The notes beneath the pieces were generated by a model. It searched no databases. It was not told the origin of the DNA and saw only the letters and a list, made by a program, of their open reading frames with translations. Shown here piece by piece: positions 19,058 through 61,945 of a stretch of DNA of 64,000 bases. Source of the stretch: Sipunculus nudus (taxonomy: Eukaryota > Annelida > Sipuncula > Golfingiida > Sipunculidae); the NCBI GenBank assembly GCA_026874595.1, contig CM049307.1:92664330-92728329 (forward strand), read 5' to 3'. A program made the position numbers and the translations under genes. Each line of letters opens with the position of its first letter. Position 1 is the stretch's first letter.

Positions 19058-19304
19058 ACGTGTAGGAGACCCGATACGTAGAGACAAGTTAAAGTGCCAT
19101 AACGTGCCATAACATTAAAGCCAGCTATTTACCTACAACATCTGTAGAATTTATGTGATTTCTGGCTAACTCTGCGTACATATCAATGAACTGCAGGTAA
19201 TTTATTTTTTTTAAATTCTTAAAACGTCTCTGTGACGTTTGTATGAGCTTGTCTATCTACAAAATGTTTGTAAATACAGTACATATGCCAAAGTTATTGT
19301 GATT

Positions 19305-19345
19305 ATTATTATTATTATTTTTATTATTTTATTATTATTATTATA

Positions 19346-19394
<49 letters not shown>
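19305..19394. repeat. (ATT)n microsatellite
   Basis: A near-perfect ATT triplet run of about 90 bases, between HAO copies B and C. It explains the poly-Ile minus-strand ORF. Confidence 0.95.
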
Positions 19395-19425
19395 GATGTA
19401 ATAGGATAAACCCCTCTCTAACCAG

Positions 19426-21330: not shown

Positions 21331-21449
21331 AATAGGTCTCTCGTATCCCTGAAACGGTTGACAGCCCTGTACAAACGTATATAAAATTTAAAAAAATGTA
21401 TAAATTAAATAAATAATTTATTGATTAATTTTTGTTTACAAATAATTAT

Positions 21450-24236
21450 TAGCTCAGCTGACTGTAAGTCATCTGAGCTATAGCGATCACCCTTTATCCG
21501 GCGTCCGGCAAATCTCCTTGGAAACCCGAAATTAGGTCATGGTAACCTATATTTTGTGACTTACGGGCAGAAAACGTGATTTTGAGCACCTAGACAGTCG
21601 GACGGGGCACAAATTGTATCCATTAGGCCTAGAAACCTCTAACCTGACATTTTGGGACATCCCAGGCAAATGTCCTTGGAAACTTGAAACTAGGTCACTT
21701 TGACCTATATTCTGTGACCTATGAAAAAAAATTGGGAAAAGATGTCATATGAGCACCGTGAATATCAGATGGGGACAGATCGTATCTGTGCAGCCTAGAA
21801 TTCTGACACAATATCCTGGGAGTTTCTAGGCAAATCTCCTTGGAAACCTGAAATTAGGTCATGGTGACCTATATTTTATGACCTACGGGCCGAAAACATG
21901 ATTTTTAGCATCCAGACAGTATTTTTGTTTACAAATAATCATTAGCTCAGCTGACTGTAAGTCATCTGAGCTATAGCGATCACCCTTTATCCGGCGTCCG
22001 GCAAATCTCCTTGGAAACCCGAAATTAGGTCATGGTAACCTATATTTTGTGACTTACGGGCAGAAAACGTGATTTTGAGCACCTAGACAGTTGGACGGGG
22101 CACAAATTGTATCCATTAGGCCTAGAAACCTCTAACCTGACATTTTGGGACATCCCAGGTAAATGTCCTTGGAAACTTGAAACTAGGTCACTGTGACCTA
22201 TATTCTGTGACCTATGAAAAAAAATTGGGAAAAGATGTCATATGAGCACCGTGAATATCAGATGGGGACAGATCGTATCTGTGCAGCCTAGAATTCTGAC
22301 ACAATATCCTGGGAGTTTCTAGGCAAATCTCCTTGGAAACCTGAAATTAGGTCATGGTGACCTATATTTTATGACCTTGGGACATCCCAGGCAAATGTCC
22401 TTGGAAACTTGAAACTAGGTCACTGTGACCTATATTCTGTGACCTATGAAAAAAAATTGGGAAAAGATGTCATATGAGCACCGTGAATATCAGATGGGGA
22501 CAGATCGTATCTGTGCAGCCTAGAATTCTGACACAATATCCTGGGAGTTTCTAGGCAAATCTCCTTGGAAACCTGAAATTAGGTCATGGTGACCTATATT
22601 TTATGACCTACGGGCCGAAAACATGATTTTTAGCATCCAGACAGTATTTTTGTTTACAAATAATTATTAGCTCAGCTGACTGTAAGTCATCTGAGCTATA
22701 GCGATCACCCTTTATCCGGCGTCCGGCAAATCTCCTTGGAAACCCGAAATTAGGTCATGGTAACCTATATTTTGTGACTTACGGGCAGAAAACGTGATTT
22801 TGAGCACCTAGACAGTCGAACGGGGCACAAATTGTATCCATTAGGCCTAGAAACCTCTAACCTGACATTTTGGGACATCCCAGGCAAATGTCCTTGGAAA
22901 CTTGAAACTAGGTCACTGTGACCTATATTCTGTGACCTATGAAAAAAAATTGGGAAAAGATGTCATATGAGCACCGTGAATATCAGATGGGGACAGATCG
23001 TATCTGTGCACCCTAGAATTCTGACACAATATCCTGGGAGTTTCTAGGCAAATCTCCTTGGAAACCTGAAATTAGGTCATGGTGACCTATATTTTATGAC
23101 CTTGGGACATCCCAGGCAAATGTCCTTGGAAACTTGAAACTAGGTCACTGTGACCTATATTCTGTGACCTATGAAAAAAAATTGGGAAAAGATGTCATAT
23201 GAGCACCGTGAATATCAGATGGGGACAGATCGTATCTGTGCAGCCTAGAATTCTGACACAATATCCTTGGAGTTTCTAGGCAAATCTCCTTGGAAACCTG
23301 AAATTAGGTCATGGTGACCTATATTTTATGACCTACGGGCCGAAAACATGATTTTTAGCATCCAGACAGTCAGACAGGGCACAAATTGAATTGATAAGGC
23401 CTAGAATACTGTGACTTTCAGGGAGGTCCTAGACAAATATCCTTGGAATCCTGAAACAAGGTCATGGTGACCTATATTCTGCGACCTATAGGAAAAAGAT
23501 GTCGTATGAACACCCTGAATGTCAGATGGTGACAAATCGTATCTGTAAGGCCTAGAATCTTCTTACACAATTTCCTGGGAGGCTCTAGGCAAATCTCTTC
23601 AGAAACCTGAGATTAGGTCATGGTGACCTACATTTTGTGACCTACAGGCCAAAAACAGGACTTTGAGCATCAAGAAATTCAGGCAGGGCACACATTGTAT
23701 TTGTTAGGCCTAGAATCTTCTAATGTAACATTCTGAAATATCCTTCGCAAATATTTGTGGAAAACTGAAATTAGGTTACAATGACCTATATTTTGTGACC
23801 TTTAGGAAAAGAAGTCATAAAGGCACCCAGACAGTCATTCAGGGCACACATTGTACCTGTTAGGCCTAGAATCTTCTTATGTAACATTCTGAGACGTCCT
23901 TGGCCAATGTCCTTGGAAAACTTAAATTCTCCTTGAAAACATGAAATTGGATCATGGTGACCTATATTCTGCCAGCTATGGACCAGAAACATGATTTTGA
24001 GCACCCAGACTGACAGGGTACAAATTGTATCCATTTTCCTTGGATTCCTCTATTGTGAAATCCAGGGGGTCCTGAGCAGGTCTCCTATGAATCCTGAATT
24101 TTTTTATTTTTCTGTCCATTTTTTCAACACTGTAACTTTAGCCATAGGCTATTCTCACATACAATATATAACATTAATAAAAAAATGAGCACCCAGTCTA
24201 AATTAACTGAGCGTCATGACCCATGGGCCACTTGTT
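21450..24236 (-). repeat. Diverged tandem array element, block 2, inverted relative to block 1
   Basis: On the minus strand the block starts at AACAAGTGGCCCATGGG-CATGACGCTCAG (24208-24236) and ends at the hairpin 21450-21480, the same termini as block 1. The hairpin end has been amplified: hairpins also lie at 21943-21973 and 22668-22698, giving nearly identical units of 493 and 725 bases, with an extra 230-base segment repeated inside (22375-22610 and 23099-23340). Perfect AGGTCATGGTGACCT palindromes lie at 21856-21870, 22349-22363, 22581-22595, 23074-23088, 23306-23320, 23459-23473 and 23615-23629; AGGTCACTGTGACCT at 22185-22199 and elsewhere. Monomers from 23340 to 24130 are more diverged. 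Confidence 0.87.
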
Positions 24237-31129: not shown

Positions 31130-32870
31130 TTAACATGAAAAGTCCACAAGTTTTGCTGAGATATTTTGCCAAAATGATTGGTAGATGATTCAATCGATGC
31201 AGGTGGCACCATTTGTGTTAAGATATAATTTTTTGTATTTAAAGCACTTAAAAGAGGTTTTTGCACAGATATGGATATATTTTCGCCATAACTCAAGTTA
31301 TGCAAGCGACGGGGAATTTACGAGCCAGTGACCTGAGGGTGTATATCAGGCTATATTTATTTTGCTGATAGCAAATGTTAAGTATCCGTTACACAGACCA
31401 TGGAAACAAGGCATGATGTTATGTAACACATCAGCTAACTCTCTCCTGGGTCAAAGGTACATCAGATATCGATACTATGGGGATCATTTACGTTAGATCC
31501 GCATCACATTATCTCGGTAAATTAACAGTTTGTTGCAAAAATTGATCTTGTGCAATGAATACGCTCAGTACGCATTGTACAGTTGTATAATAAAACTCGC
31601 TCTTAGACAGTGTTTGAACACCCAAAGCACAGCTTGACTACAGTCCGAATTTGATATTACTTAGTACACCCACAGACTTGAATGGTTCAATTCTCACATA
31701 TGTAACACGATGAATAACTGCAAGGCCTCACTTTTTGTAATTTATATTTATAATATACGGTGATGAAGATCCCATGACTAACTGTCCACTGCAGGACAAG
31801 TTAGCGAGAAATATGTTTACTTGCGCGTCGTATTAGCGTTTAGTGAAGAGGCAATACCCTTAATTAGTGAATAACTGTGTGAAAAAAATATATGTCAGTA
31901 GCAGACGAAACCATCTGTTAGGTCAATGAGTTTGAAGACTACAAAAACTAGATGAAACAATGTTTAAAACTCTGTCACTAGTCATTTAACAATGACCTAT
32001 GTCGTTTTGCGTTAATCCTAGCGTCTGCGTACAAGTAAACGGGAATAAACATCCGTAAAAACCCACATGGGCATGATTCTTTCAGAGATAATAATATCCT
32101 TGATAAATATCATGACCAGTCAGGCAGGTCTTTCTGGACACTGCAACAGTTGGATAATATTCCTGATCACTTTACCCACTCATTTTGGATCTGAACAGGC
32201 CTGATATTCAATTTGGCATCAGACAATGCAATGAATTTGGGTGAACAACTAAGGTAGGTAGCTTCAGTTTGACAGCTAAATTCAGAATGCCTAGCAATTT
32301 TCGTTTTGAGTTTATAATTTGGTATTTCATGTATTCACAGTTCGATTATTTAAATTATATATTCATTTTGTATTTCTTGTGATTGGAATCCGTGATACCA
32401 TTATGAGATGCTCAGAGATCACGTCGTGCCTCACAAAACTCTTTATGCATGCAAGTCATGCTGCATAGTGGAAGAATGCGTCATGTAACACCATTGTCGA
32501 TTAATGGAACATCTGTGAACAACATACCAGAGATGAAAGAAACAGAGGACCCATGCAACACTAACACAAATTACTGAAGGGAAATCATAATCAAACTTTA
32601 AACCATGACAGTCGTGTCCACGGAAGTTCTTAAGTTGTGACTAGGCTAATTTTTTTTTATCTTTATAAATAGCATGATGAATGTGGATTGGACTTATTAT
32701 CTTATAATCATGAATAAGATAACACTGATGAAAAATTTATTTACCATTTCTGAAACGTTAGAAAATGGGAAGGAATTTTCATCATTCCAATTGTTATTCT
32801 CTTAATGGAGTCTATGTTTTGGTGATTTATAGATACAGCCGATGGGAAAGGTGCATACGGGATCTCAAAT
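31130..32870 (+). repeat. Segmental duplication, unit 2 (contains exon 1B)
   Basis: Partner of 25920-27640, with the same block order and orientation. The LINE insertion site lies immediately after its right end. Confidence 0.8.
32231..32253 (+). CDS. Candidate first coding exon 1B of the kringle/EGF receptor
   Basis: ATG to AG, 23 bases, followed by donor GTAGGT. It reads MNLGEQL plus a split Arg codon, in phase 2, compatible with exon 2. It is closer to exon 2 (8.0 kb) than exon 1A (13.6 kb). Which of the two is used, or whether both are, cannot be decided here. Confidence 0.55.
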
Positions 32871-35800
32871 CAATTGACCCAACCCTGCCAGTATAATTGT
32901 TTCTTTTTTTTAAATAAATTTTATTGCTGAAAAATCATACAATACACATATCACACATAATTGTACAAATCACATCAAATACAATATAAACAAATGTATA
33001 CAAAGCACATTGCCTGGATATTATTCCATCTATATTAAAAATGCTTCCTTACTTTTCCCCATTTTCCTAAATGTGCAGTAATCTTATTTTTCTGTTTTGC
33101 TTTTATATATTATCAATTTTCTCTATATATTTCAATCTCCTCAAAAAACCTGGCATTAAATTGCTTGTGTTTTGATTATTTTCCTTTCTACTTTGATATA
33201 CACACATTTTAAATGTTAAGAGCACCTGATTGATAAGAAGGTTATTCTTAATTGGAAACATTTCATACAATACTTTGTTCAAGGTTAATGGTGGCATTAT
33301 CACTCCAATTTATTTCATCCAATCCACAATTCTGAAATATATATTTTTTGTTACAAAACATTCATAAAAAATGTGTTCCTTGGTCTCTAATTCTATGAAG
33401 CAATAAGAACATCGGTAACTATCAACTAACTTCCATTTGTAAAGTAAACTATTGGTTGGTAGATAGTTATGGAGTATTTTAAATAAGAAATCCCTTGAGT
33501 ACATATCCAATGAGATTTTTCTTGGATGACTCCAAAGTAACTCTCCCAGTTGATATTATCATCCTGTATTGTATGTCTGAACTTGGTCAATGATGAGGGT
33601 GCAGTAATTTTTTTTCCACCAACACATCATTAACATATTTAGAAGATAAAGATTGTATATTTGTAATACCCTAAGTTGTGATTATGATATGCTCCTCTGA
33701 TATAACTAGATTAGATTTGATATCCTCGTCTTGCAATAATTTTAGCCAGTTACATGGTATTGCAGCTAATACAGATCTCCATTTGAGATAGACTCCTGGT
33801 CTAATGCCTGGATATTTTTTAATCAAGTCATACCATTTTAGCATTTTCCCTTCACTTGAGACAAAGCCTTTTACAAACCTTATTCCACACGAGTCCAAAT
33901 GTTTGCAATACACTGAATTTTTATCCATTTTAATCCACCTATTGTCCACAGAGGTTGCAGTTTTACCTCATTTTTTATGGTGGGAGCTTTTGAAACAAAT
34001 TGTGACCAATCTTCCAAACATTGTTTATAAAAGCCTGGTATCTTAGATGGTGTTCTATGGAATTCAAAGTTTGAAGACACATTGGCAACTCCACCTATTT
34101 TCTCAAGATAAAACATTGGTACTGCTTTCCATGCATAAGCACTATTACACAGAGTCAACCTTTTAATCCAAATTATTCTTTGAGTTTTCAATCTGCTGTC
34201 TAAGTCTACAAAGTTTATACCTCCTTTATGGTATGGTCCTATCAGTGTACTTTATCTGACCTTGGGTTTTTTTCCTCTCCATACAAAATGTTTCATCATT
34301 GACATAACAATATCTATGAATGACTGAGGTGGTACATGCATATTGCATACATATATTACTTTGGATAAGGCTAATGTTCTACAAATTTCTGCCCTTCCAA
34401 ATAATGTTAAATTTCTGCTAGACCACACAGTAAAGATTTTTTTCAATTGTTCTCTCACATTATCAAAATTAAGTTTCCTATGATATCTGTATCATATGAG
34501 TGCCAGATGCCAAGAGTTTTAATTGCTCCTTTTGTCAAGTTAACCCATTTACATGAAACTGGTTCTAGTGTACTATACTTACTTGAACCTATCCAGGCTG
34601 CCTCAGATTTATTATAATTGACATGCAGGGAAGAAAATTGTGAAAACACATTTATGGTGCTAATTAAATGTTCAAATGAAGCCGTGTTCCTGATGAAAAA
34701 AGTTATGTCATCTGCAAAACATGTCATTTTTAATTCATATGCACCAACATTGACTCCTTGGATATTTTTATTTATACGAACTTGATGTGTTAACACTTCT
34801 AAAACTAATATAGACAAATATGGGGATATTGGGTCCCCTTGTTTAGTACCCCTAGACAACAAAAAGTATGGTGTTGTAAAACCGTTGTTAATAACACAGC
34901 TTTTCATGTTATTATGCAAAGTTTTTATCCAGTTAATGTACACTGGGCCAAGGCCTAGTTTTTTTAGAACACTTAACATGAAGACCTGATCTACTGAGTC
35001 AAAAGCAGCTTTAAAGTCAGCTCCAAAAAGAATTGCTTCTTGCTGTTCTGTATCATAATACTCCATCATATCACTGATTAAGCGAACTGAATTTCCGATA
35101 TAGCGGCCTGGAACAAAAGCATTCTGATCTGAGTGGACCAATTTTTAAAACCTTTCGCAATCTTGAAACTAAAATTTTACTTAACACCTTACAGTCAACA
35201 TTTATTAAGCTTATTGGTCTCCAGGATTCTATATATCTTTTGTCCTTACCAGGTTTTTCTAAAAGCTTAATAACTTTTTGTTTTTGGCTCTCTGATAATT
35301 CTCCTGATTGATACCTTTCATTTAAACAAGCAGTCATTTCAAAACCTACTTCATTAAATATACTAAAGTATAATTCTTTTGTTATTCCATCATTCCCTGG
35401 TGTTTTATTATTTGGCATACTTTTTAAGGATTCAAGTACCTCTGGTACAGTGATGTTACCTTCACACTTCAAAGACTCATCCTCAGTTAGTTCTGGTAAC
35501 CCATAAATACCTTCTAATAACTTATCACATTCCTCAGAGGTGACATCTGAAGATCTTGAAAACCTTTGCATATAATATTCATGAATATGCGACATTATTT
35601 TGTTGTGATCATTTGTTTCTTCAGACCCTACTATTAATTTTTTATAACTGTCATTTCATGATTTCTCTTTTCAAGATTTAAGAAATATTTTGTGCTGCGC
35701 TCACCCTTCTCATACCACTGAGCTCTGGATCTAACAATTATGCCCTCAGTTATCAGATCATAACATTCTTCAAGTTTCTGCTTTAAATCTTTGTATTTTT

Positions 35801-38800
35801 CAATAATACTATTATCATTGCACTCTCCAATATTACTTTCTAACTGCTCAACTTCATCCTGTTTATTCTGTTAGCTTTGCTTTTTTCTTTTGAGTATGCT
35901 ATCGCAAATTTTCTTATATGATATTTTAAATAGTCCCACTTGGTTTTATCATTCATATTTGTATGAAAAGCTTCATGTTTCACTAATTGTATATACTCTT
36001 TTAATTTGGTTATAAATAAGGTGTCTTCAGCTAATGAATTATTAAATTTCCAGTAAGAAGGCCCATTTTTTGGTATTTTAAAAGAACAAAGTCTAAGTAA
36101 TACCGCTGAATGGTCAGTTCCCACACAAGGTATAATTTCACAGTTTGTGACATACGGTTGTAAAGTCACTGATATAAGAAAATAGTCTAACCTACGTTGT
36201 GTAAGTGGGTTTAATCTCCTCCAAGTAAATCCTTTAATATTTGGATTACGTAGTCGCCATATATCACACAGATCATATGTTTGAAGTATTATTTTTACAG
36301 AGTCAATTGTTTTATATTTGAATGTTGGATTACCACCTTGAGCATCCATGGGGGAGAAACAGAAATTCAGGTCTCCTCCCCAGATAATTTTAGTATTAAA
36401 GTCTATGTCAAATTCTTTTTCAATTATTTTACAAATCTTTTGATAACACAGCACTTGTTCTGTCTCACTGTTTGGACCATAAACATTAACTAATAAAAAT
36501 GGACATTCCTGAATATAGGCATTTAAAATGACAAATCTACCCTCTCTGTCAGAGACACATTTAACTGACTTAAATTGCAGTTTTTGACCAATTAATATAA
36601 TGGCTCCTCTGGCTTGACTAGTTCCATGTGAGAAAAAACATGTACCTCGCCACTGATTTTGCCAAGATTGTTCACTCTTTTCTACTGAATGAGTTTCTTG
36701 TATAAAACTTACTTCTTTATCCATGTCATGTTTTGTTAAGCAATTTAAGAGTTTCCTGCGTCTTACATAATTACTGATGCCACGCACATTGACCTTAGTA
36801 TTGAAAATTTATAATGATCACCTTCCATTATTCAGTTTCAAAGGGATTCCTAGATTTGAAGCTTATTGTTATTGTTATCACTAATAATTTACAATGTATA
36901 ACTGCAAAATGTATACAAGTCAGATTATTATTATTTTTTTCAGTTTCCTGGATGTGCATGTATATGTTTCTAATGATTTTGCTAAATGCCCGCATATAAA
37001 TGCAAATGTGATGTGTACGGCAAATTCATATAAATATTTACAGTTTATAGGTGTATTGCAAAACATATGGCCTGGCGAAGATCTAACTGAAGAATAATCT
37101 GAATGTGAATATAAACTTAAATTAAAAGTAGATATCTTATTGAAAACAAATGCCCAAGTCACTATTATGATAAAAGGTCCATTCATAAATGACATACTGA
37201 TGTACATATAAGGGATTTCTTGGCGTGATGAGGTTAAGTTGCATCGTTTTGCTGAATTTTAAGTTTAGCTACTTTGGGTAAGATAGTTTTCCATTAATCA
37301 CCCTGCTTAAATATAAGTTTGGCCTGTTTCGTAAAGGGGATCAGAGCAACAAATCAATCTCTCATGAGTTTATCTCTTTTTTTCTATGAGCGATTTCCTT
37401 TTCTCCTGTGTAGATTTACAGACATCGTCTACTACTCTGTATTTACCTGTTTTGTAGGATTTCAGTGCTCTGTTTCCATGTTTTAGTATTCCTTCAACGA
37501 CCTCCTCAGCTGACAGTGTGACCAACACAGGCGTTCCCCTATGTGGGTCGCGTCGGCCTTGACCTTGACCTGGTGCCGGCTTTTGTTTTGGTTTGAGCCG
37601 ATACGCGTTGTGCATATGGCACTGATCCAGATCTTTGTTTACATGTTTCAAAACCTCTGTCACTCTTGTTTTGAGGCTTGATTTGGTTTCCCCGTGTATT
37701 TCTGGTACGTTGAGGAGCTTGATGTTTTTGCTTCTCTCTTTATTTTCTAAATATTCAATCCTATTGTCAAGCTGTTTGCTGGAGCCGGCTTCTTGGACTT
37801 TCGCCAAGTCTGACTTGACGATGGGCACTTCGGCTTGGACCAATTCTATATTTCCCGTATGGTGGTCATTGTCCATTTCCAGAGCGCTTATTCTAGTTTC
37901 CAGCGATTCAACTCTTATATGCAGGATATCAATTTTTTGTTCAATCCTGTCAAGAAGCGAGAGTTTTTTTTCCAGATTGCTTCGAGTGTTACCTTGGAGT
38001 CGTTTGTCAGTTCCATGGTTACTATGCGACGTGATGGCTCCTTGATGCTGATCATCTGATTGCCGCTCGACTCGGATTTCTCTCTGTGTTTACTCGCTTA
38101 AACAAACGTTCTCTCTTGGTTTCTTTTCACTGTTCAAGACCCCTTCAGTACTTGAATTAATAATGCACGTTTATACTTTGAATTTCAGCAGCTTTCTAGT
38201 ATGTAGCGAGATAGTTTGTCCCCACTTCACGCTCGCCCATCTGTTTACATTTGTCACGTGACCGGAAATCACGTTGATTGTTTCTTTTAAAATAAATTGA
38301 GTTTAGAATTTAGATTGAGTGGTTTACTATTTCCTTTTATCGATTTTTGGATATATTCTTTGATAAGGCAACTTTTGTTTTCACATATATGATTCCAAAT
38401 ATCCGAATGTTCAGCTGAAACTGATATAAAGAATTGACTTAGGATTTACTATATAAAAGTGGCCAAAAAGTGTGCAATATTGATAGCCTAAATACAATAA
38501 GTAGATATACTGTTTTATTAAGTTATTATTACCGAATCTCAGTTTAAAAGAAAAAAAATGTGAGTATAGATCACCGTAAACTGAATATTTCGAAGCTGTA
38601 TACCTGTATAGTGCATGACACTCCCGTCGATTGTCTTGTGAACTTTCGTCTAATTAAACTAGAGAAAGATTTGCAGATAAATGGACTCTATTACTTTATT
38701 CGTAAAATATTCAAAATGAATTTTAACAAATTGCATTCTTAATCATCAGAGTAATAGCACAAAGACATCTAGTGACCATTGATATTGATAAATATTTGCT

Positions 38801-41110
38801 GAAAAACAAACTTAGGCAAGATGATATTTTAATAATTATTTGTGATGTGTTTCACTGAAATGCAACATTGTTTAGTTCAACTTACTTAAAGTCATCTGGG
38901 CTGTAGCGATAACTTTTTTTTTTTTTGTCGTTTGTGTGTCTGTCGGTTATTCTGTCTGTCTGTCCTTCCGTCGGTCCGTCCGTTAATGGGACACAAATCA
39001 TAACCGCTGGACCTAAACCCTTCAAACTGAAAACCCATCAAGGTCAATAAAATTTTCCTTAAAAACTAAAATTTAACTGTGACCTTTATCCAACGAGCTA
39101 CCGGGCTCGAAAGTACTCCCCAGAATTATTAAACATTTGAAAAAAAATGCTGAATATTGATCATTTTCTGTTTCATAATTTTCTTAAGACTGGTTACGCC
39201 ACCTGTATTTCTTTAATGTTTACGTTTTCTTTCTAATATTAATACCTTAAGATGAAGCAGACCTTTTTTAACAGGGCACAAATCGTAACCGTTAGACCTA
39301 GAAACGTCTAACTGTACATCCCAGGATGCCCTGGGTAAATCTCAACCTGATATCCACCGAGCTATTGGGTTCAAAAGTACCCCCAAGAATAATTAAAAAA
39401 TTGAAACGAAAGCTTCAGTTTCTGAATAACTTAAGCATTCATTGCCATGAGTCTTTCCATTTATATTGATCATGCGTGTTGCCTCATTTCTTGAAGACAG
39501 GTGGCTCCACCTGTATATTTTCTACTTTTTACGATTTTGTTCTCTATATTTGAGACCTTCAAATGAAGCAGTCTGTTAACAGGCCACAAATCCTAATGGT
39601 TAAACCCAGAAACTTCTTACATTGTATCAAGTCATTTCCTAGACAAGTCTCCTCGGAAACCTTGAATTAGGTCATTATCATGAAATGTTTTCTTCTGCTT
39701 GATACTGAAGTATTTAAATTGCTACAGTTGTCGGGATTTCACCTAAAAAATGGCATTTAAATGATAAAATTCCTTTTGTGAATGTCTTCCAAGTCAGCTG
39801 AGCGTCATGACCCTTAGATCATTTGTGTTAGATTATCACAGCATCACCACACATATGTCCGATGACCTTTTCTGCTTTGATTTTACCAGAAATTAATATA
39901 ATTTACTTGTGAAAATATTATAGATATATTTCGTGGAAATCCATTCAATCCATAGTAAGCTATTGCGTTGACACTTAGGAGTAACGGGCGAATGGTTATA
40001 CGGACGAAGGGACCCTGCTAATGACATTATATAACCCGATTAAGCCGAATATATATTAAATGTATGCATTCAAATCGATAGCAGCGATTCCTGTGCATAA
40101 AGTATTGCGTAATACTGGCATTAAATTAGCTATCGCTTTGAAAGGCTTTGATATGCTAATTGTTTCCGCAGACTGCTGGCACCCCTCCCAATGAATGCTT
40201 TGGTGCTGAATCAGGAAATATGCCTCCGATGCTAAGCATGTTCTATGGTGATATTATGACAACAGTTTACTAGTTATTAGTAAATATTAACCAATTACTT
40301 TGCAGGTTTACGGTACTTGCTTTCTGGTTCATCAAATTTACAGGAGCCGCCATACAACCTCACGGTGAGCCATCACCTTTCCTTACTCAGTGTCTTACAA
40401 ACCGTCATGAACAATTTCAACTATACCTGTAAACATAATAGAAATAAAGATATTGAAACTGAAACAAATTATTGATGAAAAATATATTCCAATAAATATT
40501 CGTGCCTCCAATACACTATTATTTGTCAAAACGCTGAAACTGTTCCTACAGGTGCAGTTGAGGATGATTACGATACATGTGTATGCAGTCGTAATCCCGT
40601 TGCCCCTTCCAGTTTGTTTCATTGCCTGATATACTATCCTTCAGCGAAGATATATATTTCTCAATATTTTTATTAATCAAGATTGCAGTCCAGGAAGGTT
40701 TGGCTGGCAGTGTCGGTATGTCTGTGACTGTCAAGGATCATGTAATCCAGTCACAGGGGAATGTGACGCGTGTGAGGGGGAGAAGTGGGGAACAGGATGT
40801 CTGCTGAGTATGGCAATTCTGCATTATATAATAATGCCCATATTTAGCTGAGCTTAACTTTTCCGCTAGATCCCCATAGAGTATTGCAGTCCAAACTTGC
40901 CGGAAACATTATTACAAAAATGATTAAACGATATCAGTCTTTGACTTCATAATGAATAATCTCAGACTCATATAATGTCATCTTTATAATGTGACTGAAA
41001 TCCGCATATGTGTCTATTTAGTCTATCTTTTCTGCACCAACAAATGCATGGTAATATTTTAGTATTAATGTTTTATCACATATCACCGATCTCAAAGTCC
41101 GTTTATATAC

Positions 41111-41182
<72 letters not shown>

Positions 41183-44100
41183 CAAGTTGTTCTTAGTGTG
41201 TACCTTTCATTTCTTATTACAGATTCCTCCTGCAGGTATAATGACTCGAGAGGGAGGTGGTATCAAGGGAAGCGATCATGGGTTGACAGGGTTCGTCTAG
41301 GTTCCCCTAATACCACATCGTGTATTCCCTGGTACCCACAAATAAATCATTATTCAGGCAACACATTTCCAGAGCGAGACCTGCGTAAAGCGTCGAACTA
41401 CTGCCGTGATCCCAGTCGTAGTGGATTCCTCTGGTGTTTCACAAGAATAAAACCGCCGTTCCATGACTGGGGGAGATGTGATCAAGTTCAACCATGTGGT
41501 TAGAATCGACACTTAAAATATGCAATTATAAAACACCATACTCACTCCATGCATTATAAATACGGATGCGTGTTGGTATAAGTTTGAAATAATTAATGTG
41601 GCAATGTACTGACTCTGCTGTGTATAGCGATAGGATATCAGTCAACTGTTTAATTTAAATTACTATCCTTCGTTTAAAAACTCCTTTAAAAACGAGAGAT
41701 TCAATGGACGTATATCCCGCCATAAATCAGCTTCATGTATAAGTGATTAAGTGACACGTAAATCTGTTATAATTAAGTGTTAAATATAAGCTTTCATTGT
41801 CAATGAACTCAATAAAATTCACAATACTGTCTGGATATACTTCTCTCTCTCTCTCGAAAGCAAAATGTATCTTTATGTACTGGAACGAGTGCAGCATCAT
41901 TGTCAAGAAGGAATATGCGACTTATAATAACGTATTTCTGGTTCAAAGGTGTATAGTACCGGTAGTTCTGCCTAGGAAGGCAAAACATTCGTACAATTGC
42001 TGCTTCTTTAGACTGCGAATGGTGGTGAGGTGTATATAATCTAAATATTATAAGTATAGCTAGGGCTTGTCTCTTCACAATTTGCTCTAAATTGCTTTGA
42101 CTCCGTCAGATTGTCCTGACGGTAGGTTTGGTGTAAACTGCCGGGAAGAATGCCACTGCAGAGATAAATCAAACCAGTGTTCCACTGAAACGGGACGGTG
42201 CACCTCTGGATGTCATGAAAGGTTTCAGGGGTCCTCGTGTCAGGGTGAGTACGTTCCGATCCTAGGAAAACATTATGTTGAGGCGCATTTATATTTCCTG
42301 ACTATAAATTAAGTAATCAATCATTTAAATGATTATAATTATTTTTATTGAAAATCCTTGAAACTTTTATAAAAGTTTTGTTTTGGACTAGGTAATAATT
42401 AGTTTATTTATTAAAAAATATTCAATCATTTTTAAATCTTGAAGCGGCCAATACTTATTTCTTTTCTTATAGTTCACACATAATTTGTCAGAGGCATTGA
42501 TTTACCCAGATTTATCATATTTTCCTGTTAATCAGACTGCAAGGACGGTTATTTTGGTTTATACTGTAACGCCACCTGCCGATGTTACGAACAAAGAGAC
42601 GTCTGTGATAAAACGACGGGGGTGTGTAAGAGCGGCTGTGCAGCGGGTTGGACCGGACCGGACTGTCAGACTGGTATATACACGAACGATGTTTATATAA
42701 GCCTGAAACATATCATTAATTTTAAAACGCACAGTGAGACAGATTTATAAATTGTTTCTTATGAAAACTTTATCATAGAATCGAGTGCAGCAACTTTGTC
42801 AAGGCGGAATATGTGACTGATATAACGTTTTTTTCGGAATTAAAGGTGTACTTTACCTGTAGTTCTTCTGAGGGAAAGCAATACATTCGTACTTCTGCTG
42901 CTACTTTAGACTGCGTATGGGAGTGTTGTGTTTATTATCTAAACAATAAGCGTCTAGTTGGGAATTGTCACTTAAAAATATGCTCTAAATTGCCTGTGAA
43001 TCCCTCAGATTGTCCTAAAGGAAGATTTGGCGTCAACTGCCTGAAAGAATGCCACTGTAGAGGTAAATCAAACCGATGTTCCTCTCAAACGGGCCGGTGC
43101 CCCTCTGGCTGCCATGAAAGGTATCAGGGTCCCTCCTGTCAGGGTGAGTACGTTCCGATGTTTAGAATACATATAAATATGTTGGTTAATGTAATTTATA
43201 GTTCTTAACTTAAGCAAAAGATGCTTTTTATGATCATTATACTTTTATTGTAAATCCTTAAGACTTTTATAAAATTTATGTTAGGGACTGGGCATTAATT
43301 ACATTCTTCATTCAATTATATTTATTTTTTGGAAACCTTTTTAGTGCTTTTCATATAGTTCACACAGCATCCGTCAAATGCATTATTTTTACTCAAGTTA
43401 AACCATGTTTTACTGTTAATCAGACTGCAAGGACGAATATTTTGGTTTATACTGTAACGCCACCTGCCGATGTTACGAACAAAGAGACGTCTGTGATAAA
43501 GCGACCGGTAGATGTCAGCACGGCTGTGCAGCGGGTTGGACGGGAGCGGACTGTCAGACTGGTATATTCAAAAACGATGTTGATATAAAGTCAGGAACAC
43601 CTTTCATTAATTTGAAAACGCACTGTGAGACAGACTTAAGGAAGTTTCACACTTGATGTATTCGAACAAATGTTATGTCCGAACGAAAATGTGCTGTACT
43701 AACGTAAAAATAAAACTTTTTATGGTATATTGTTGCATACACATCTAATATGAACGATCAAACCCGAAAGAAAAAGAGGTGTATTTATGTCTTTCTCATA
43801 GGACTAGAACGGCTTCTTTTTTCACTGAAATCTGTTGAATTATCTTTTTGTATTATATCAAGGCTACCGCCTTTATTCACAAAGCGATAGAACATCTTCA
43901 TATTCTTAAAAGGTAAATATACCTATCTGAACTTCATAAACTAAACATGATCGCTTGCAGCCTTTATAAAAAATCGGCCGAAAAAAAACTAGGATATCAC
44001 CGCTCACAGGCTGCTTGTTTTGTTTATATCAACGTGTTTATAATATCAGGGGTCAGCCAAAATAAATAAAACAAATTCATCTGTCGTTAAGTCAGATAAA

Positions 44101-47100
44101 CCAGAGCTTTGCAAATGGCGTTTTGTAACAAGAAATCTTTCCACCTCCGCATATATGCGACGTACCACCATGGGTTACATGTTTTACCGTTTGTCAACAT
44201 TGGTGTGTTTACAAACATGTTGTTGATAAACAACTTCACACATCCTTCACGGAAGCCTTCTAAGAACCTTTCGCAACAAAAATTACCCTTCGATCACCAA
44301 CAAATACACAAGGGAAGTTATCACAAATTCATTTTCAAAAGGTAGATAAATGGACACCTCTCAAGGCCCATATGCTGGACGGTCTCACATTTCAACTTTG
44401 AGAAAAGAAACCTTCTTATTTTCTTTCGTTTCATGTATTTAGTGTTTGTGGACCTTCAAAGTCACTTATAACAATAACGAAAATATTATGTTTGTGTTTA
44501 GACAAAGAAAAAAAGACCATAAGGCAAAAGAAAAAAAGGTTTGGTTCTCAGACACTTTTTTTCAGAAATCGTTGCGGGCAGGGGATTTTTTTTTTTTACC
44601 TTTTTTGTATCTTTCGACAAAAATGTCATATGATCAGAGGAAAATAACAGAATATTTTGACTATACAGGTAAAGGCACCTAATAAAAAGGAACTTTTATC
44701 ACAATTCTTTTACTTTATCTACATGAAAGAAATATCCAGCGGCTGAAGCTCAAAATTGCTTTTTATTGAAAATCAAAATGAATTTTTTTTAATACGGGGG
44801 ATAACGGTTGACCTAACATGTCCAACTATAACATTCAGATAGTATGAATATCTTGTAGCAATCAATTCGTAAACCTGGCCGTTGTTCATATATTTATTTT
44901 TATTATATAGAATGCATCCCCGGGTATTATGGGCCCTCATGTTTGAACAATTGTTCTCAGAATTGTAAGAATAGACAAGAGTGTGACAGAGTGAAAGGAT
45001 TTTGTTTATGCGAAGCTGGGTTCCAACTACCTACATGTAAAAACAGTGAGTGAATATTTTTGTAAGCAGTCCTTATATTTAAGTAAAATTCTAAAAAGCA
45101 TGAATGGCGAAATAGGATAACAATAAGACAACATATTCTCCAATTCGTGGAAATTCTAGATATGTTACATTTCTACAGGTAAGAATGCAGTTTAACTGGA
45201 CTTAAACAGAGGAAATAAACTAATTATGGATACTACATGGGCCAAAGTATATTGAACTATTTTTTTCCGATGCACATGTTGACAGGGTGTCCTCCTGGAA
45301 CGTACGGTATGAACTGTACATCGTCCTGCAGTTCAGGATGTGACGGACCATGTGATCACGTGAACGGAACGTGCACATGCCGTTGTGATTTCAAGGGTCC
45401 CACATGTACTGAACGTAAGTTTTAGGAACAACAAAACACTTATTTACTGTTCGAATTAGGCAATGGCAGTTTTATAAAAACCCAAAGATGGATGTGAGAA
45501 CAATTTTGGCAGATGATGTATTTGTCACATATCAAGATATCGACATCGAATGTAAAAATATAAGTATAGTGTAATAATTAATTAAACCCATTCAGGAAGG
45601 TGCGACTTCGAATTAAATTATCAATTGGAATGTATATTGATGATGAGTTCCAAGATGATGTTGTCGCATAAAGAACAGATATAACGTTAACAAATGGCTG
45701 ACGTTCATTTTTATAATCATAAAATGTTTCCTCAGGAATACTAGTTGGCTCTTCCGGACAGAAAGAAACGTGCCGTATTGGCTGTATTATGGCAGTGGTA
45801 TTTGCTATTCTGTTCCTGTTTGTGGCCGGGCTCCTCATTGCGTTCTTCGTCAGGTAGGAAAGGAAATAAATTTCAAGATAATAAAAATGTTACTGCCAAA
45901 ACAGGACTCGTATGTACAGGTTAAGGATTAAAGCCAATTTTATTTACTGTTAAAAATATTATTTCTTCCTCTTTCAGGTCTGTGCGAAACAGGAACACTT
46001 TATCGAAAGGTGATTAACATAGTACTTGTACACTGTACATACTGTATCATACCTACAGGATTTATCCTTAAAATATATCTAAAACACAACATGAGTAAAA
46101 AGACGGATGGAAGAATGGTCCCGCATGCAGTTGAACAGAATATGTCGGGAGTTGAAGAAAGAAATTTGGGTTTCAAAATAATCTGCAATAGTGTCAGTGT
46201 CAATAGTTTGCAGTATACAAAATATTGTTAATATCATTAATTAATTTTGTCATCTTTTAACCTTTAATGTTGTCGAGTAAAGTTCTGTTATCAGCGCTGT
46301 AAGTTTGATTTCGTATGCGGAAATTATATAGCGTACTTCCATGTGTTTTTCTTTATATCTCAGATACAAATCTTTGGATGAATATGACAGTCGCTGAAGA
46401 GAACAAGCGGAATCAAATCAATCAGGTCCGTGTATTGCGATTTAAAAAAATCTTAACAGGCAGGACAGACTCATAGGTTAATGAATTGCTATAAATAACA
46501 AGTATTTAAAGTCACGTAATAATAACAACCAAATAGAATATTTCGATGTGTAAAGAGTAGTTCTTTCTTTCATATATGTGAATACGTTATACAAATAATA
46601 TAAAAGTAAGGTGTAAGTTCATCAATTTAGTAATCCATGATAGTTCAAAGATATTCGAAGCATATAATTTTTTCATGAAAAATGATATTATTGTTATTGG
46701 ATTAATATGTAATATATCAGTTCTGCTGAAAGTATATCCATACATTTGGATCAAACTTTGCATGTAGAATAAGCCTTGAGATGGTAATGAAGCTTATTGT
46801 ACTGTCATTTAACCAGACATAACAACGTTCGTAACAATGCAAACGGTGTTGTAGATAAGGTCAACTCATGTCTCACTTAATTACATTAGTGTGAGACTTT
46901 CAGGATCTACCAAATTGGTAAATATTTTGTTAAAAGACTCCCTAATGGGTAAATTAGAAAATAATATAGTACAATGATATTTGTTGTAGGTTCGAGACGG
47001 GGATGAAGAATCGGATGCAGGTATTTGCACACAAACATACAAAAAACATGCGGACTCTTGTTATTTTTCTTTAAGGGTGAACGTGTGCGCACACACAGAT

Positions 47101-47598
47101 AAGACAAAAATATTGCCCATCAATATACATACCGTTTATATCCGGATAGTAAATGTATACAACATAAATTTCAAACTGATCACAGTTAGCTATTGTTTTA
47201 CTATTGTATATAACCTTATTGTATATAACTACAATACTAACAAGAAATAAGAGGGATAAGGCCCCATTACCTTAATACATGTATTATGCTGTAATAATAT
47301 TATGCGATTGAAATATTTCATTTAGATTACTATAATCTGGCATCACCTACTTACGAACAGCTGGATGTCCAGACGACTATAGACAATCAAGGTATGAACA
47401 GTGCCATAAAGCTTATAACTCCCATATAAAGTATACCTGAATTATAAAACCCGGTGATCAGTAACATTACAGATCTGGTACGTGCAATATGACAACATAA
47501 CTTGTTCTCGGTACTATAAAAGAAATAAAATCAAAGAGACTTTATTTGAATATATAGCCCACAAATGATTATATTGTCGTTCATATATAGAAACCCAC

Positions 47599-47632
<34 letters not shown>

Positions 47633-47700
47633 TATTACGGTCTGTTTTAGATACCGAATGTGATGGTAACACCTACCAGAGCCTGCAACACATGCAATGA
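32231..47700 (+). CDS. Single-pass receptor with EGF-like repeats, one kringle and a YxxL tail (CED-1/Draper/MEGF10-like)
   Basis: Sixteen exons join with every splice phase consistent to 550 codons plus stop. Exon bounds: 32231-32253 (or 26655-26677), 40306-40364, 40682-40807, 41223-41498, 42110-42244, 42536-42673, 43009-43143, 43424-43561, 44911-45045, 45286-45414, 45736-45853, 45978-46009, 46364-46425, 46990-47020, 47326-47391, 47651-47700. Order: signal peptide, EGF-like, kringle, six EGF-like, transmembrane helix, cytoplasmic tail of about 80 residues. Extracellular domain exons are symmetric phase 1-1. MEGF/Draper receptors clear apoptotic cells or debris through phosphotyrosine motifs. 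That role is an inference here: the kringle is not part of the canonical family. Expression and ligand are unknown. Human-type gene symbols are withheld because orthology cannot be shown. Confidence 0.85.
33300..35600 (-). pseudogene. LINE ORF2, reverse transcriptase and C-terminal part, frameshifted
   Basis: Pieces in different frames: SWRPISLINVDCKVLSKIL; the frame shifts near 35110; FGADFKAAFDSVDQ (motif A), SRGTKQGDPISPYL (motif B), TCFADDITFF (motif C), ending near 34455; then LFGRAEICRTLALSKVIY, and a C-terminal stretch to about 33310 containing CSYCFIELETKEHIFYEC, a zinc-knuckle-like motif typical of L1/Tx1 ORF2 ends. Several separate stops and shifts make it non-functional. Confidence 0.88.
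35600..36810 (-). pseudogene. LINE ORF2, endonuclease part, frameshifted
   Basis: The frame opens NVRGI near 36800 and shows the APE-type endonuclease landmarks: QETHS, GGDLN, RRLDYFLIS and GTDHSAVL. It stops at 35840. The next stretch continues in another frame (about 35870-35640: KGERSTKYFLNLEKRNH), showing at least two frameshifts or stops before the reverse transcriptase. Confidence 0.85.
37370..38059 (-). pseudogene. LINE ORF1 (coiled-coil RNA-binding protein), frameshifted
   Basis: The start (ATG at 38057-38055 or 38016-38014) reads MELTNDSKVTLEAIWKK, then loses frame at an A8 run (plus-strand T-run 37964-37971). The continuing frame reads heptad-rich sequence (LDRIEQKIDILHIRVESLE, ISALEMDNDHH), then LENKERSKNIKLLNVPE. 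That resembles the coiled coil plus RRM-type trimerisation protein of L1/Tx1 elements. It ends at a stop at 37370. Confidence 0.8.
38289..38878. other. Intronic sequence, no feature recognised
   Basis: AT-rich; a 60-residue ORF here (38560-38742) has no recognisable motif. Confidence 0.5.
38879..39832 (-). repeat. Third member of the array-element family, short form
   Basis: The left end carries a degenerate form of the hairpin terminus (AAGTCATCTGGGCTGTAGCGATAAC). The right end reads CAGCTGAGCGTCATGACCC on the plus strand, the same other terminus as blocks 1 and 2. Inside are TCTGTCTGTC/GTCCGTCCG motifs and diverged ACAAATC-TAACCG--AGACC phrases, but no perfect AGGTCAnnnTGACCT palindrome was seen. 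Confidence 0.65.
39833..40305. other. Intron 1 end, upstream of exon 2
   Basis: No feature recognised apart from the acceptor TTTGCAG at 40299-40305. Confidence 0.6.
40306..40364 (+). CDS. Receptor exon 2: signal-peptide core
   Basis: 59 bases in phase 2-1, acceptor TTTGCAG, donor GTGAGC. It encodes FTVLAFWFIKFTGAAIQPH, a hydrophobic core followed by small residues suited to signal-peptidase cleavage. It needs an upstream exon to supply the ATG, which both exon 1 candidates do in frame. Confidence 0.75.
40682..40807 (+). CDS. Receptor exon 3: EGF-like repeat 1
   Basis: 126 bases, phase 1-1. It reads DCSPGRFGWQCRYVCDCQG, CNPVTGECDACEGEKWGTGC: a cysteine-rich EGF/laminin-like repeat of the DCPPGxFGxxC type seen in molluscan multiple-EGF proteins. 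The donor is GTATGG, with the split codon completed by exon 4. Confidence 0.88.
   Translation: MAVQEGLAGSVGMSVTVKDHVIQSQGNVTRVRGRSGEQDVC
41117..41181. repeat. (TA)n microsatellite in the intron before the kringle exon
   Basis: About 65 bases of alternating TA, ending some 40 bases before the kringle exon acceptor. Confidence 0.95.
41223..41498 (+). CDS. Receptor exon 4: kringle domain
   Basis: 276 bases, phase 1-1, a whole kringle in one exon. Six cysteines fall in kringle order: CRYND, TSCIPW, NYCRDP, LWCFT, GRCDQ and QPC, with the family's LRKASNYCRDP and WCFT signatures. The lysine-binding DxD/W pattern of plasminogen kringles is not clearly present. Kringles are disulphide-bonded extracellular binding modules, so this places a ligand-binding domain between EGF-like repeats. 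Confidence 0.92.
42110..42244 (+). CDS. Receptor exon 5: EGF-like repeat 2 (type a)
   Basis: 135 bases, phase 1-1. It reads DCPDGRFGVNCREECHCRD, QCSTETGRCTSGCHERFQG, SSCQG. It is the partner of exon 7, which differs at a few residues; exons 5-6 and 7-8 are two copies of one duplicated unit. Confidence 0.9.
42536..42673 (+). CDS. Receptor exon 6: EGF-like repeat 3 (type b)
   Basis: 138 bases, phase 1-1. It reads DCKDGYFGLYCNATCRCYE, VCDKTTGVCKSGCAAGWTG, DCQT. Acceptor ATCAG and donor GTATAT are both repeated in exon 8. Confidence 0.9.
43009..43143 (+). CDS. Receptor exon 7: EGF-like repeat 4 (type a copy)
   Basis: 135 bases, phase 1-1. It reads DCPKGRFGVNCLKECHCRG, RCSSQTGRCPSGCHERYQG, PSCQG. 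It lies 899 bases after exon 5. Confidence 0.9.
43424..43561 (+). CDS. Receptor exon 8: EGF-like repeat 5 (type b copy)
   Basis: 138 bases, phase 1-1. It reads DCKDEYFGLYCNATCRCYE, VCDKATGRCQHGCAAGWTG, DCQT. It lies 888 bases after exon 6 and differs mainly in the central loop. Confidence 0.9.
43562..44910. other. Intron with a dispersed repeat
   Basis: About 43950-44155 is the second copy of the repeat at 15185-15420. Short A/T-rich ORFs at 44109-44345 and 44446-44682 have no recognisable motif. The intron ends at acceptor TATATAG. Confidence 0.6.
44911..45045 (+). CDS. Receptor exon 9: EGF-like repeat 6
   Basis: 135 bases, phase 1-1. It reads ECIPGYYGPSCLNNCSQNC, QECDRVKGFCLCEAGFQLP, TCK. 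The donor is GTGAGTG. More diverged from the exon 5-8 repeats. Confidence 0.88.
45286..45414 (+). CDS. Receptor exon 10: EGF-like repeat 7
   Basis: 129 bases, phase 1-1. It reads CPPGTYGMNCTSSCSSGC, GPCDHVNGTCTCRCDFKG, PTCTE. The donor is GTAAGT. It is the last extracellular repeat before the juxtamembrane stretch. Confidence 0.88.
45736..45853 (+). CDS. Receptor exon 11: transmembrane segment
   Basis: 118 bases, phase 1-2. After a short polar stretch (RILVGSSGQKETCRIG) comes a hydrophobic run of about 22 residues (MAVVFAILFLFVAGLLIAF) ending in Arg, followed by basic residues in exon 12: a type I single-pass helix. Confidence 0.9.
45978..46425 (+). CDS. Receptor exons 12 and 13: start of cytoplasmic tail
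   Basis: Exons 45978-46009 (SVRNRNTLSK) and 46364-46425 (TNLWMNMTVAEENKRNQINQ). Both have AG acceptors and GT donors with compatible phases. The basic juxtamembrane region supports the topology. No kinase or other folded domain. Confidence 0.78.
46990..47700 (+). CDS. Receptor exons 14-16: tyrosine-motif tail and stop
   Basis: Exons 46990-47020 (VRDGDEESDA), 47326-47391 (DYYNLASPTYEQLDVQTT plus IDNQ) and 47651-47700 (DTECDGNTYQSLQHMQ, TGA at 47698-47700). Three YxxL motifs: YYNL, YEQL and YQSL. The first pair is spaced more tightly (4 residues between motifs) than a canonical ITAM (6-12), the second pair more widely (17). Such motifs bind SH2 proteins when phosphorylated in Draper-like receptors. 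Confidence 0.82.
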
Positions 47701-50749: not shown

Positions 50750-51860
50750 ATATTGATTTGGGTTTGTCTGTCTGTCCGTCTGGCTCTCTGTCCGTCCGTC
50801 AGTTTTCGTTTTTGTGCGATAACTTTCCTAAATATTATTCGGTTTCATTCAAATTTTGGTCAGTGATTGCTCTCATGTTTACCTTGGTTGGGATTGCTTT
50901 TGAAGTGTCTGGCTTCTGTCTGTCTGTCTGTCAGGTTTTCGTTTCCGTGCGATAACTTTCCTAAATATCATCCGCTTTCATCCAAATCATGGTCAGTGAT
51001 TGCTCTCATGCACACCTTGGTTGGGATTGCTTTTGGAGTGTCTAGGTTCTGTCTGTCTGTCTGTCACTTTGTGTGTCTGTCTGTCAGGTTTTTGTTTCCG
51101 TGCGATAACGTTCCTAAATATCATCCGGTTTCATTCGAATTTTGATCAGTGATTGCTCTCATGCTTACCTTGGTTGGAATTGGTTTTGGAGTGCCTGGCT
51201 TCTGTCTCTCTGTCTGTCTGTCACTTTCTCTGTCTATCTGTCAGGTTTTTATTTCCATGCGATATCTTTCCAAAAAATTATCCGATTTTATTCAAATTTT
51301 GGGCAGTGATTGCTCTTATGCTTACCTTGGTTGGGATTGGTTTTGGAGTGTCTGGCTTTGTGTCTATCTGTCCGTCTGTCACTCTATCAGTTTGTCAGGT
51401 TTTCGTTTCTGTGGGATAACTTTCCTAAATATTATCCGATTTTATTCAAATGTTGGTCAGTGATTTCTCCAATGCTTACTGTGGTTGGGATTGTTTTTGG
51501 AGTGTCTTGCATCTGTCTGTCTGTCTGTCAATCCGTTTGTCAGTCCTCAGATTTTCATTTCCGTGCGATAACTTTCCTAAATATTATCTGATTTTATTCA
51601 AATTTTGGTCAGACATTGCTCTCATGCATACCTTGGTTGGGATTAGTTTTGGAGTGTCTGGCTTTGTTACTATCTGTCCGTCTGTCACTCTGTCAGTTTG
51701 TCAGGTTTTCGTTTCTGTGGGATAACTTTCCTAAATATTATCCGATTTCATTCAAATTTTGGTCAGTGACTGCTTTCATGCATACCCTGGTTGGGATTTG
51801 TTTTGGAGTGTCTGGCTTCTGTCTGTCTGTCTGTCACTCTGTCTGTCCGTTCTTTATCAA
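50750..51860 (+). repeat. Minisatellite with about 153 bp unit, seven copies
   Basis: The phrase GCGATAACTTTCCTAAATAT-ATCCG, then TTGGTCAGTGATTGCTCTCATG, then TTGGTTGGGATTG-TTTTGGAGTGTCTGG and a CTGTCTGTCTGTC run, recurs. GTGATTGC anchors at 50863, 50996, 51149, 51306, 51459, 51612 and 51766 give spacings of 133 and then 153-157. Because 153 is a multiple of three, overlapping ORFs stay open across units; they are not evidence of a protein. Confidence 0.92.
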
Positions 51861-60692: not shown

Positions 60693-61610
60693 TTTACTGT
60701 TTTTCTTCATGACAGTCTTGTCAGAGTATTAGTTTGCAATCATATATTTAGAACTTTACTATAACCAAGTAGGAGGGCCCCTTTCCTCTTAGCGTTTCAT
60801 ATTCTTATATAAATGAAAAAAACATTACAATAGAATATTTCTACATCCACCTTCACGCTGCCCTCACTTTTCCCTTCTCCGAACCCCATCCCATAGTCAG
60901 CCCGAGTAAGCAAGAACAAGATGAATCAGATATATTCATACTTTAATATTTTGTATAACTATTCGTCCATAGGTACCTATGTACATGCCAGAAATTATGT
61001 CAATATCGTGTAATATGTAGACATAGTGGGCATCACAATAATGTACCTTGTCAAGACTAAAGAGATATTGTGTCATACAGTCACAAATTCATAAATCACT
61101 TTATCAGCATTGTTAATCATAACATAATATCTGTCAAATTGAAAGCTTGCATTTACTGTTTTTCTTCATGACAGTCTTGTCAGAGTATTAGTTTGCAATC
61201 ATATATTTAGAACTTTACTATAACCAAGTAGGAGGGCCCCTTTCCTCTTAGCGTTTCATATTCTTATATAAATGAAAAAAACATTACAATAGAATATTTC
61301 TACATCCACCTTCGTGCTGCCCTCACTTTTCTCTTCTCCGAACCCCATCCCAAAGTCAGCCTCAGTAAGCAAGAACAAGATGAATCAGATATATTCATAC
61401 TTTAATATTTTGTATAACTATTTCTCCATAGGTACCTATGTACATGCCAGAAATTATGTCAATATTGTGTAATATGTAGACATAGTGGGCATCACAATAA
61501 TGTACCTTGTCAAGACTAAAGAGATATTGTGTCATACAGTCACAAATTCATAAATCACTTCATCAGCATAGTTAATCATAACATCATATCTGTCAAATTG
61601 AAAGCTTGCA
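60693..61610. repeat. 459 bp tandem duplication
   Basis: 60693-61151 and 61152-61610 are nearly identical (for example TTTACTGTTTTTCTTCATGA at 60693 and 61152, and GTCAAATTGAAAGCTTGCA at both ends), with scattered single-base differences. No ORF of note. Confidence 0.92.
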
Positions 61611-61893: not shown

Positions 61894-61909
61894 TTATAGT
61901 CCAATCATG

Positions 61910-61945
61910 ATCAGCTGAGCGCCGTGACCCATGGGTCCCTTGTTT
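61910..61945 (-). repeat. Array-element terminus forming the C-terminus of the YqaJ ORF
   Basis: On the minus strand the segment reads ACAAGGGACCCATGGGTCAC then GGCGCTCAGCTGATC, matching the outer terminus of the elements at 15467 and 24208-24236. It encodes the last residues NKGPMGHGAQLI of the YqaJ frame before the stop at 61894. Confidence 0.7.

Follow-up and report, generated by a model that had tools for sequence, protein, structure and literature searches.

A kringle- and EGF-bearing receptor gene of Sipunculus nudus, possibly a short-tailed branch of a receptor tyrosine phosphatase family

Introduction

Kringle domains are best known from clotting, from growth factors and from the ROR kinases, while an N-terminal EMI domain, a long run of EGF-like repeats and an NPxY motif in the tail are features of the engulfment receptors CED-1, Draper and MEGF10. 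Receptor-type protein tyrosine phosphatases (RPTPs) build their ectodomains from Ig, FN3, MAM or carbonic-anhydrase-like domains; kringles are not known among them. In vertebrates, the paired receptors of the SIRP, KIR and Siglec groups set shared ectodomains on opposed cytoplasmic modules. Here we describe a gene at positions 32231-47700 of a 64-kb stretch of the genome of Sipunculus nudus (contig CM049307.1, hereafter C2, positions 92664330-92728329; this whole stretch is referred to as the window). We propose, with moderate confidence, that the product is a type I membrane receptor whose ectodomain runs EGF-kringle-EGF, and that the gene belongs to a short-tail branch of an expanded family of kringle-bearing RPTPs, perhaps within a recognition system with opposed outputs. 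If so, the kringle would be a new ectodomain for RPTPs.

Invertebrate kringles have been reported in other settings, as far as the accessible parts of the respective reports go. A mussel protein combines a MAC/perforin domain with a kringle (PMC4581086), a protein of limpet adhesive mucus carries M12A peptidase, ApeC, CUB and kringle domains (PMC7333891), and kringles occur in mannose receptors of the Manila clam (PMC12321717). The flatworm protein Tmed-krg1 is a membrane protein with six kringles that was proposed to bind a lysine-rich adhesive, and knockdown animals are non-adhesive (PMC9229212). A keyword search of the literature, in which most subscription journals were not covered, returned records holding nothing that we recognized as an EGF-kringle-RPTP family.

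Results

Domain layout of the gene

The gene model was rebuilt from the window DNA alone. It consists of 16 coding exons on the forward strand, with phases that match at every join and GT-AG at all 15 introns, and comprises 551 codons including the stop; the product has 550 residues. An initial annotation of the stretch had likewise drawn 16 exons in consistent phase. The predicted product contains, in order, a putative signal peptide, an EGF-like module, a kringle, six further EGF-like repeats, one membrane helix and a tail with tyrosine motifs.

Exon 3 (40682-40807) encodes the first EGF-like module and exon 4 (41223-41498) the kringle, with its six cysteines. The six EGF-like modules that follow, numbered 2 to 7, are encoded one by one in exon 5 (42110-42244), exon 6 (42536-42673), exon 7 (43009-43143), exon 8 (43424-43561), exon 9 (44911-45045) and exon 10 (45286-45414). 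Exons 5 and 6 are identified by Pfam and by matches in paralogs, exons 7 and 8 as tandem copies of exons 5 and 6, respectively, in a duplication alignment, and exons 9 and 10 by cysteine count and paralog matches. Each of the seven EGF-like exons has 8 cysteines, save exon 10 with 9. Pfam EGF_laminin matches exons 5-10 (E=1.5e-15), and exon 3 alone gave no Pfam match. All of exons 3-10 are of class 1-1 (phase 1 in, phase 1 out), so that any one of them could be skipped without a frame shift. The previously annotated layout of EGF, kringle and six EGF repeats on 1-1 exons is thus retained. The strongest hydrophobic stretch of the protein, residues 446-470 by hydropathy, is the membrane helix, encoded in exon 11 (45736-45853).

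A family of EGF-kringle loci in the same genome

The genome of the same animal (1.43 Gb, 153 contigs) was searched with the kringle exon of the window gene. At least 42 matches were obtained (150 of 181 candidates scored), 34 of them on C2. Twenty loci of about 10 kb each were read in detail; one (L022) has two kringles, giving 21 paralogous kringle exons. By tblastn within these pieces, the first EGF module (EGF1) precedes the kringle at 18 of the 20 loci, and the second (EGF2) follows it at all 20; for the other two, L013 and L019, EGF1 is matched further upstream, at 5.9 and 2.6 kb, respectively. The window gene has the same arrangement, with EGF1, kringle and EGF2 exons in order and a kringle exon of class 1-1.

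The EGF1 exon itself has 54 matches in the genome. A kringle match is found within 10 kb downstream on the same strand for 38 of these, and 38 of the 42 kringle matches are preceded by EGF1. The remaining 16 EGF1 matches lie at 87.2-89.6 Mb on C2. A kringle-less sister cluster was considered for this region and dropped, since two of the 16 loci, when read, had divergent kringles, and a search with one of these found more: 13 of the 16 also have a kringle, with 10 distinct kringles among them. Overall, a kringle lies within 10 kb downstream of 51 of the 54 EGF1 matches, which makes at least 48 distinct EGF1-kringle loci, 44 of them on C2. Three EGF1 matches are without a kringle, and one of these three has a stop in EGF1. 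Some loci are disrupted, with stops in the paralogs L010, L011, L014, L018, L021 and L023. The expanded family that the initial annotation had surmised is therefore present in this genome. A scan of a genome-contig collection found no relative.

Distances between EGF1 exons and between kringle exons correlate across 17 loci (Mantel r 0.76, p 0.0001; L013, L014, L018, L019 and L023 excluded), which argues that the two modules were inherited together. Because nearly all EGF1 matches have a kringle downstream, the kringle was probably not gained by the window gene, and a gain by this gene alone, as first annotated, is unlikely; the kringle was likely present in the family ancestor. The kringle tree, with 1 of 17 inner branches starred, resolves little, the order of exchanges between tails and phosphatases included.

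Kringles are also abundant elsewhere in this genome. A search with Pfam Kringle gave 350 candidates, 150 of which were scored, all 150 over the cut-off. Dense clusters are seen, for example, on C9 at 28.89-28.95 Mb and on C10 at 33.3 and 39.2 Mb, as well as on C15, C6 and others, and most of the listed matches lie away from the EGF1-kringle loci studied here.

The kringle domain is conserved under selection

As an isolated domain, the kringle exon of the window gene matches Pfam Kringle with E=1.1e-6 and 29.3 bits (29.3-29.6 across scans), under the curated cut-off of 34.3. The kringle was not listed in a Pfam scan of the full-length protein, and an NCBIfam scan of the kringle gave no match. 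A phmmer comparison with plasminogen gave E=1.3e-9. The family as a whole was represented by 20 undisrupted kringles, namely that of the window gene and 19 of the 21 paralogs; left out were L014, with no AG at the slot and a broken frame, and L023, with a stop. Each of the 20 reaches E 0.01 or better with Pfam Kringle, the best value being 3.5e-14, and their alignment has 14 columns, including the six cysteines, that are invariant in every sequence. A profile built from them matches plasminogen (3.9e-63), HGF (1.8e-45) and ROR1 (1.8e-12).

The exon boundaries are equally conserved. An AG occupies the expected acceptor base of the kringle exon in 21 of 22 rows (the window gene and 21 paralogs), the exception being L014, and a GT donor follows one base after the last cysteine codon in 19 of the 19 paralogs kept. 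The ratio of non-synonymous to synonymous substitution rates (dN/dS) of the kringle ranges from 0.17 to 0.68, with a median of 0.31, and is below 1 in all 22 pairs with dS under 1.5; these are 22 of 190 pairs, the other 168 being dropped with dS of 1.5 or more, or saturated. Values below 1 argue that the kringle has been kept by selection. A stray exon or a chance frame is ruled out by the identical slot and phases in the paralogs together with this purifying selection. We conclude that, by these sequence comparisons, the kringle of the window gene is real and under purifying selection. The initial annotation had placed a kringle in an EGF-repeat receptor and named profile-HMM searches as a check; the Pfam match on the isolated exon, the six cysteines and the plasminogen match bear this out, and the profiles matched were Kringle (below the cut-off for the window gene) and EGF_laminin.

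One feature of the plasminogen kringles is missing. The Asp of the NPD motif, found in all five plasminogen kringles and which we take to be part of the lysine-binding site, is absent after the invariant Pro in all 20 family kringles. Thus, lysine binding of the plasminogen type would not be expected, and another ligand would be. A single-sequence AlphaFold2 model of the kringle exon alone reached a predicted local distance difference test (pLDDT) score of 48.5 and is unusable for judging the three-loop fold. A perfect TA microsatellite of 33.5 units (41114-41180) ends 42 bases before the kringle exon.

Relatives with tyrosine phosphatase domains

At L025, a helix recognized by eye lies downstream of the ectodomain and is followed by peptides of a protein tyrosine phosphatase (PTP). 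Four of five pieces from the first PTP domain and its surroundings match Pfam Y_phosphatase, with E from 0.002, which is below the cut-off, to 1.5e-12, and one has no match. At L031, two of five pieces match the same family (2.6e-5 and 3.4e-7), and we take these for the second PTP domain of the L025 gene. The first catalytic loop of L025 (within positions 8860-9280 of that locus) reads HGSAGVGRTG across an intron, with Gly in place of the catalytic Cys, and this domain is likely an inactive phosphatase. L013, whose kringle is 67% identical to that of the window gene, has exons of both PTP domains (L013/L033); its first PTP loop, within positions 2320-2860 of L033, is HCSAGVGRTG across a GC-AG intron, with the Cys kept. 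The start of a PTP domain is likewise present at L012. Judged by these exons, L025 and L013 are RPTP genes, each with a pair of PTP domains.

The link between EGF1-kringle loci and PTP domains was read in sequence at L012, L013 and L025, and at the other loci by position only. A genome search with a PTP model gave at least 153 matches (150 of 496 candidates scored). The test of position used 33 of the matches, 26 listed on C2 and 7 near loci on C4, C10 and C12, and 38 loci, the four of 42 kringle matches without EGF1 being left out. Among the listed matches, 15 of the 38 loci have one on their own strand in the 20 kb downstream. In the upstream direction that strand gives one locus, and the opposite strand gives none. 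Random points on C2 fall near a listed PTP match in 0.41% of cases; this figure ignores clustering, so the control by strand and direction is the fairer one.

A cytoplasmic PTP domain, present in L025 and L013, was not found in the window gene. A pattern search of both strands of the window detected no PTP motif, and PTP peptides compared with the window, L009, L010, L011 and L014 gave no match at E below 0.5.

A short tail with three tyrosine motifs

In place of a phosphatase, the window gene has a short cytoplasmic tail with three YxxL motifs, YYNL, YEQL and YQSL. A search of the genome with the tail matched three loci: the window, L009 (about 26 kb further on) and L010 (C2, 52.32 Mb). Exon 11, with the helix, is 74-82% identical in L009 and L010. 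The juxtamembrane exon 12 (45978-46009) and the tail exon 14 (46990-47020) have 90% and 85% DNA identity in L009, respectively, each with both splice sites kept. In exon 13 (46364-46425) a stretch of 16 residues is 75% identical in L010, and no counterpart of this exon was found in L009, the nearest paralog. Exon 15 (47326-47391), with YYNL and YEQL, is 95% identical in L009, above any ectodomain exon, and 73% identical in L010; exon 16 (47651-47700), with YQSL and the stop codon, is 71% and 69% identical. By these matches the three loci form a branch with a short tail of the three-YxxL type in place of PTP domains.

The short tail might alternatively mark a decoy or competitor, which lost its phosphatase domains and dampens the phosphatase siblings by sharing their ligand, the tail tyrosines doing little. 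The kringles of the PTP-bearing L012 and L013 are indeed close to that of the window gene (dS 0.51 and 0.48), and only three loci have its type of tail. We nevertheless regard this as unlikely, given the conservation of the tyrosine-bearing exon 15 in both other tail loci.

As a further possibility, the gene could be a nonfunctional member of the family, incomplete or in decay. Several paralogs are disrupted, L014 with no AG at its kringle slot among them, so that loss is common in the EGF1-kringle family. In the window gene, however, all 16 exons are open and the junctions intact, and dN/dS is 0.27 in the ectodomain relative to L009 (with exon 8 in the total instead of exon 6); the duplicated exons of the gene, compared with each other, give 0.29. 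A functionless relic is thus very improbable.

The initial annotation had taken the gene for an engulfment receptor of the Draper/MEGF10 type that acquired a kringle. Laminin-type EGF repeats, a single helix and tyrosine motifs are shared with such receptors, and a PEAR1-like EGF model is matched weakly, at E 0.0014, short of the cut-off. Against this kinship, Pfam gave no match to an EMI domain up to E 0.1, the tail has no NPxY, and the EGF modules number seven, split by the kringle. Moreover, where relatives could be read beyond the membrane helix as far as PTP exons, they are RPTPs, and the family ancestor probably had the kringle already. The proposal of an engulfment receptor with a newly acquired kringle therefore appears quite improbable.

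Our preferred assignment, a short-tail branch of a kringle-RPTP family, has points against it as well. Among the listed matches, which come from 150 scored candidates of 496, 22 of the 38 EGF1-kringle loci have no PTP match, and the true share of phosphatase members may differ from these counts. At 45 kb the positional control is weaker: PTP matches on the locus's own strand lie downstream at 16 loci and upstream at 4, and the opposite strand gives 5 and 1. At L010, which is among the three tail loci, one EGF exon is interrupted by an in-frame stop. The tail exons of the window gene and L009 have a dN/dS of 0.82 on 46 codons, too short to test selection, and a pattern search of the window tail found no immunoreceptor tyrosine-based activation or inhibition motif (ITAM or ITIM), nor NPxY.

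The N terminus and an internal duplication

Every exon from 2 to 16 finds a match in one or more of the paralogs in this genome. Exon 2 (40306-40364) has counterparts 45-70% identical at 5 of 20 loci and would encode the hydrophobic core of the signal peptide, as suggested by a modest N-terminal hydrophobic stretch (1.2). The weakest exon call is exon 1 (32231-32253; start codon, MNLGEQL, phase 0 in and 2 out), because the 8-kb intron 1 that follows it holds a degraded antisense long interspersed nuclear element (LINE). No other ATG exon of 150 bases or less within 20 kb upstream has so strong a donor, by our own generic donor score. In L014, an ATG exon likewise 23 bases long and with an identical GTAGGT donor lies some 0.6 kb before exon 2, and the stretch preceding it matches in part. 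Alignment scores of exon 1 were no better than those of shuffles in any of six paralogs tested, L014 included. In this LINE (33880-38089, reverse strand), Pfam recognizes a reverse transcriptase (9.9e-21) and, slightly below the cut-off, an endonuclease; a coiled-coil frame is present as well.

Exons 5 and 6 were doubled by a tandem duplication spanning 41886-43638 on the forward strand, with copies at 41886-42747 and 42782-43638 (77% identity over 879 columns). Between the copies, identity is 84 and 91% in the exons and 69-78% in the introns. The dN/dS value over both duplicated exon pairs corresponds to 0.21 and 0.47 for the pairs taken singly. In L009 the kringle is followed by four EGF modules, and in L014 there is a second, disrupted copy of the first post-kringle EGF module.

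Other features of the window

An open frame of 1691 amino acids on the reverse strand (2-5074), which runs off the window edge, reads by eye like the polyprotein of a BEL/Pao-type retrotransposon. Near the other end, a reverse-strand frame (61897-62958) has a YqaJ-type recombinase domain (Pfam 1.3e-13). On the forward strand, a frame at 8015-8545 matches FMN-dependent dehydrogenase (5.5e-14), and a second frame, similar-looking by eye, lies 11 kb away at 19274-19585; the two are possibly copies of a hydroxyacid oxidase. Tandem arrays are located at 16208-17398 (unit 157-314 bases), 21428-23716 (156-493), 50787-51847 (133-306) and 60693-61610 (459). An Rfam scan of the window at gathering score gave no match.

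Discussion

The analysis points to one EGF-kringle-EGF ectodomain type that has been spread over about 50 loci and joined to different cytoplasmic parts. We tentatively suggest a lineage-expanded invertebrate recognition system, in which this ectodomain is wired either to tandem phosphatases, one of whose first domains is seemingly dead, or to a short tyrosine tail, so that opposed signals would arise from the same kind of ligand, with the kringle as the variable recognition module. The ligand of the kringle and its flanking EGF modules would be a protein or a glycan, carried by microbes, by dying cells or by other cells. Clustering by the ligand would let a Src-type kinase phosphorylate the tail tyrosines of the window receptor, and SH2 proteins would then be recruited to these. 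Siblings that share the ectodomain type but carry phosphatase domains would set the threshold by removing the phosphates. Vertebrate paired receptors likewise combine activating and inhibitory members. If the proposal is true, the family would be a candidate for recognition of self or of microbes in an animal without antibodies. Dozens of Draper-family genes and over 40 receptor PTPs are more highly expressed in the agranulocytes of the eastern oyster (PMC13070813), which fits an immune setting; the word kringle does not occur in the accessible text of that report.

Among known systems, the RPTPs are represented by the relatives at L025 and L013, which pair the same kind of EGF-kringle-EGF ectodomain with exons of two PTP domains, whereas the window gene is without a PTP domain. 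With CED-1, Draper, MEGF10 and PEAR1, the window gene shares laminin-type EGF repeats, one helix and tyrosine motifs in the tail; it differs from them in the missing EMI match and NPxY, perhaps in its few EGF modules, and in the kringle set between modules 1 and 2. Like plasminogen, HGF, ROR1/2 and prothrombin, it has what is by sequence a kringle, the family profile matching the first two and ROR1, but no protease or kinase was seen with it, and the Asp after NP is missing. Tmed-krg1 is likewise an invertebrate membrane protein with extracellular kringles, although it has six, and the accessible text describes no EGF modules or tail like those of the window gene (PMC9229212). Finally, the system proposed here would differ from the paired receptors of the SIRP, KIR and Siglec groups in that one partner would itself be a phosphatase, and the domains involved are unrelated.

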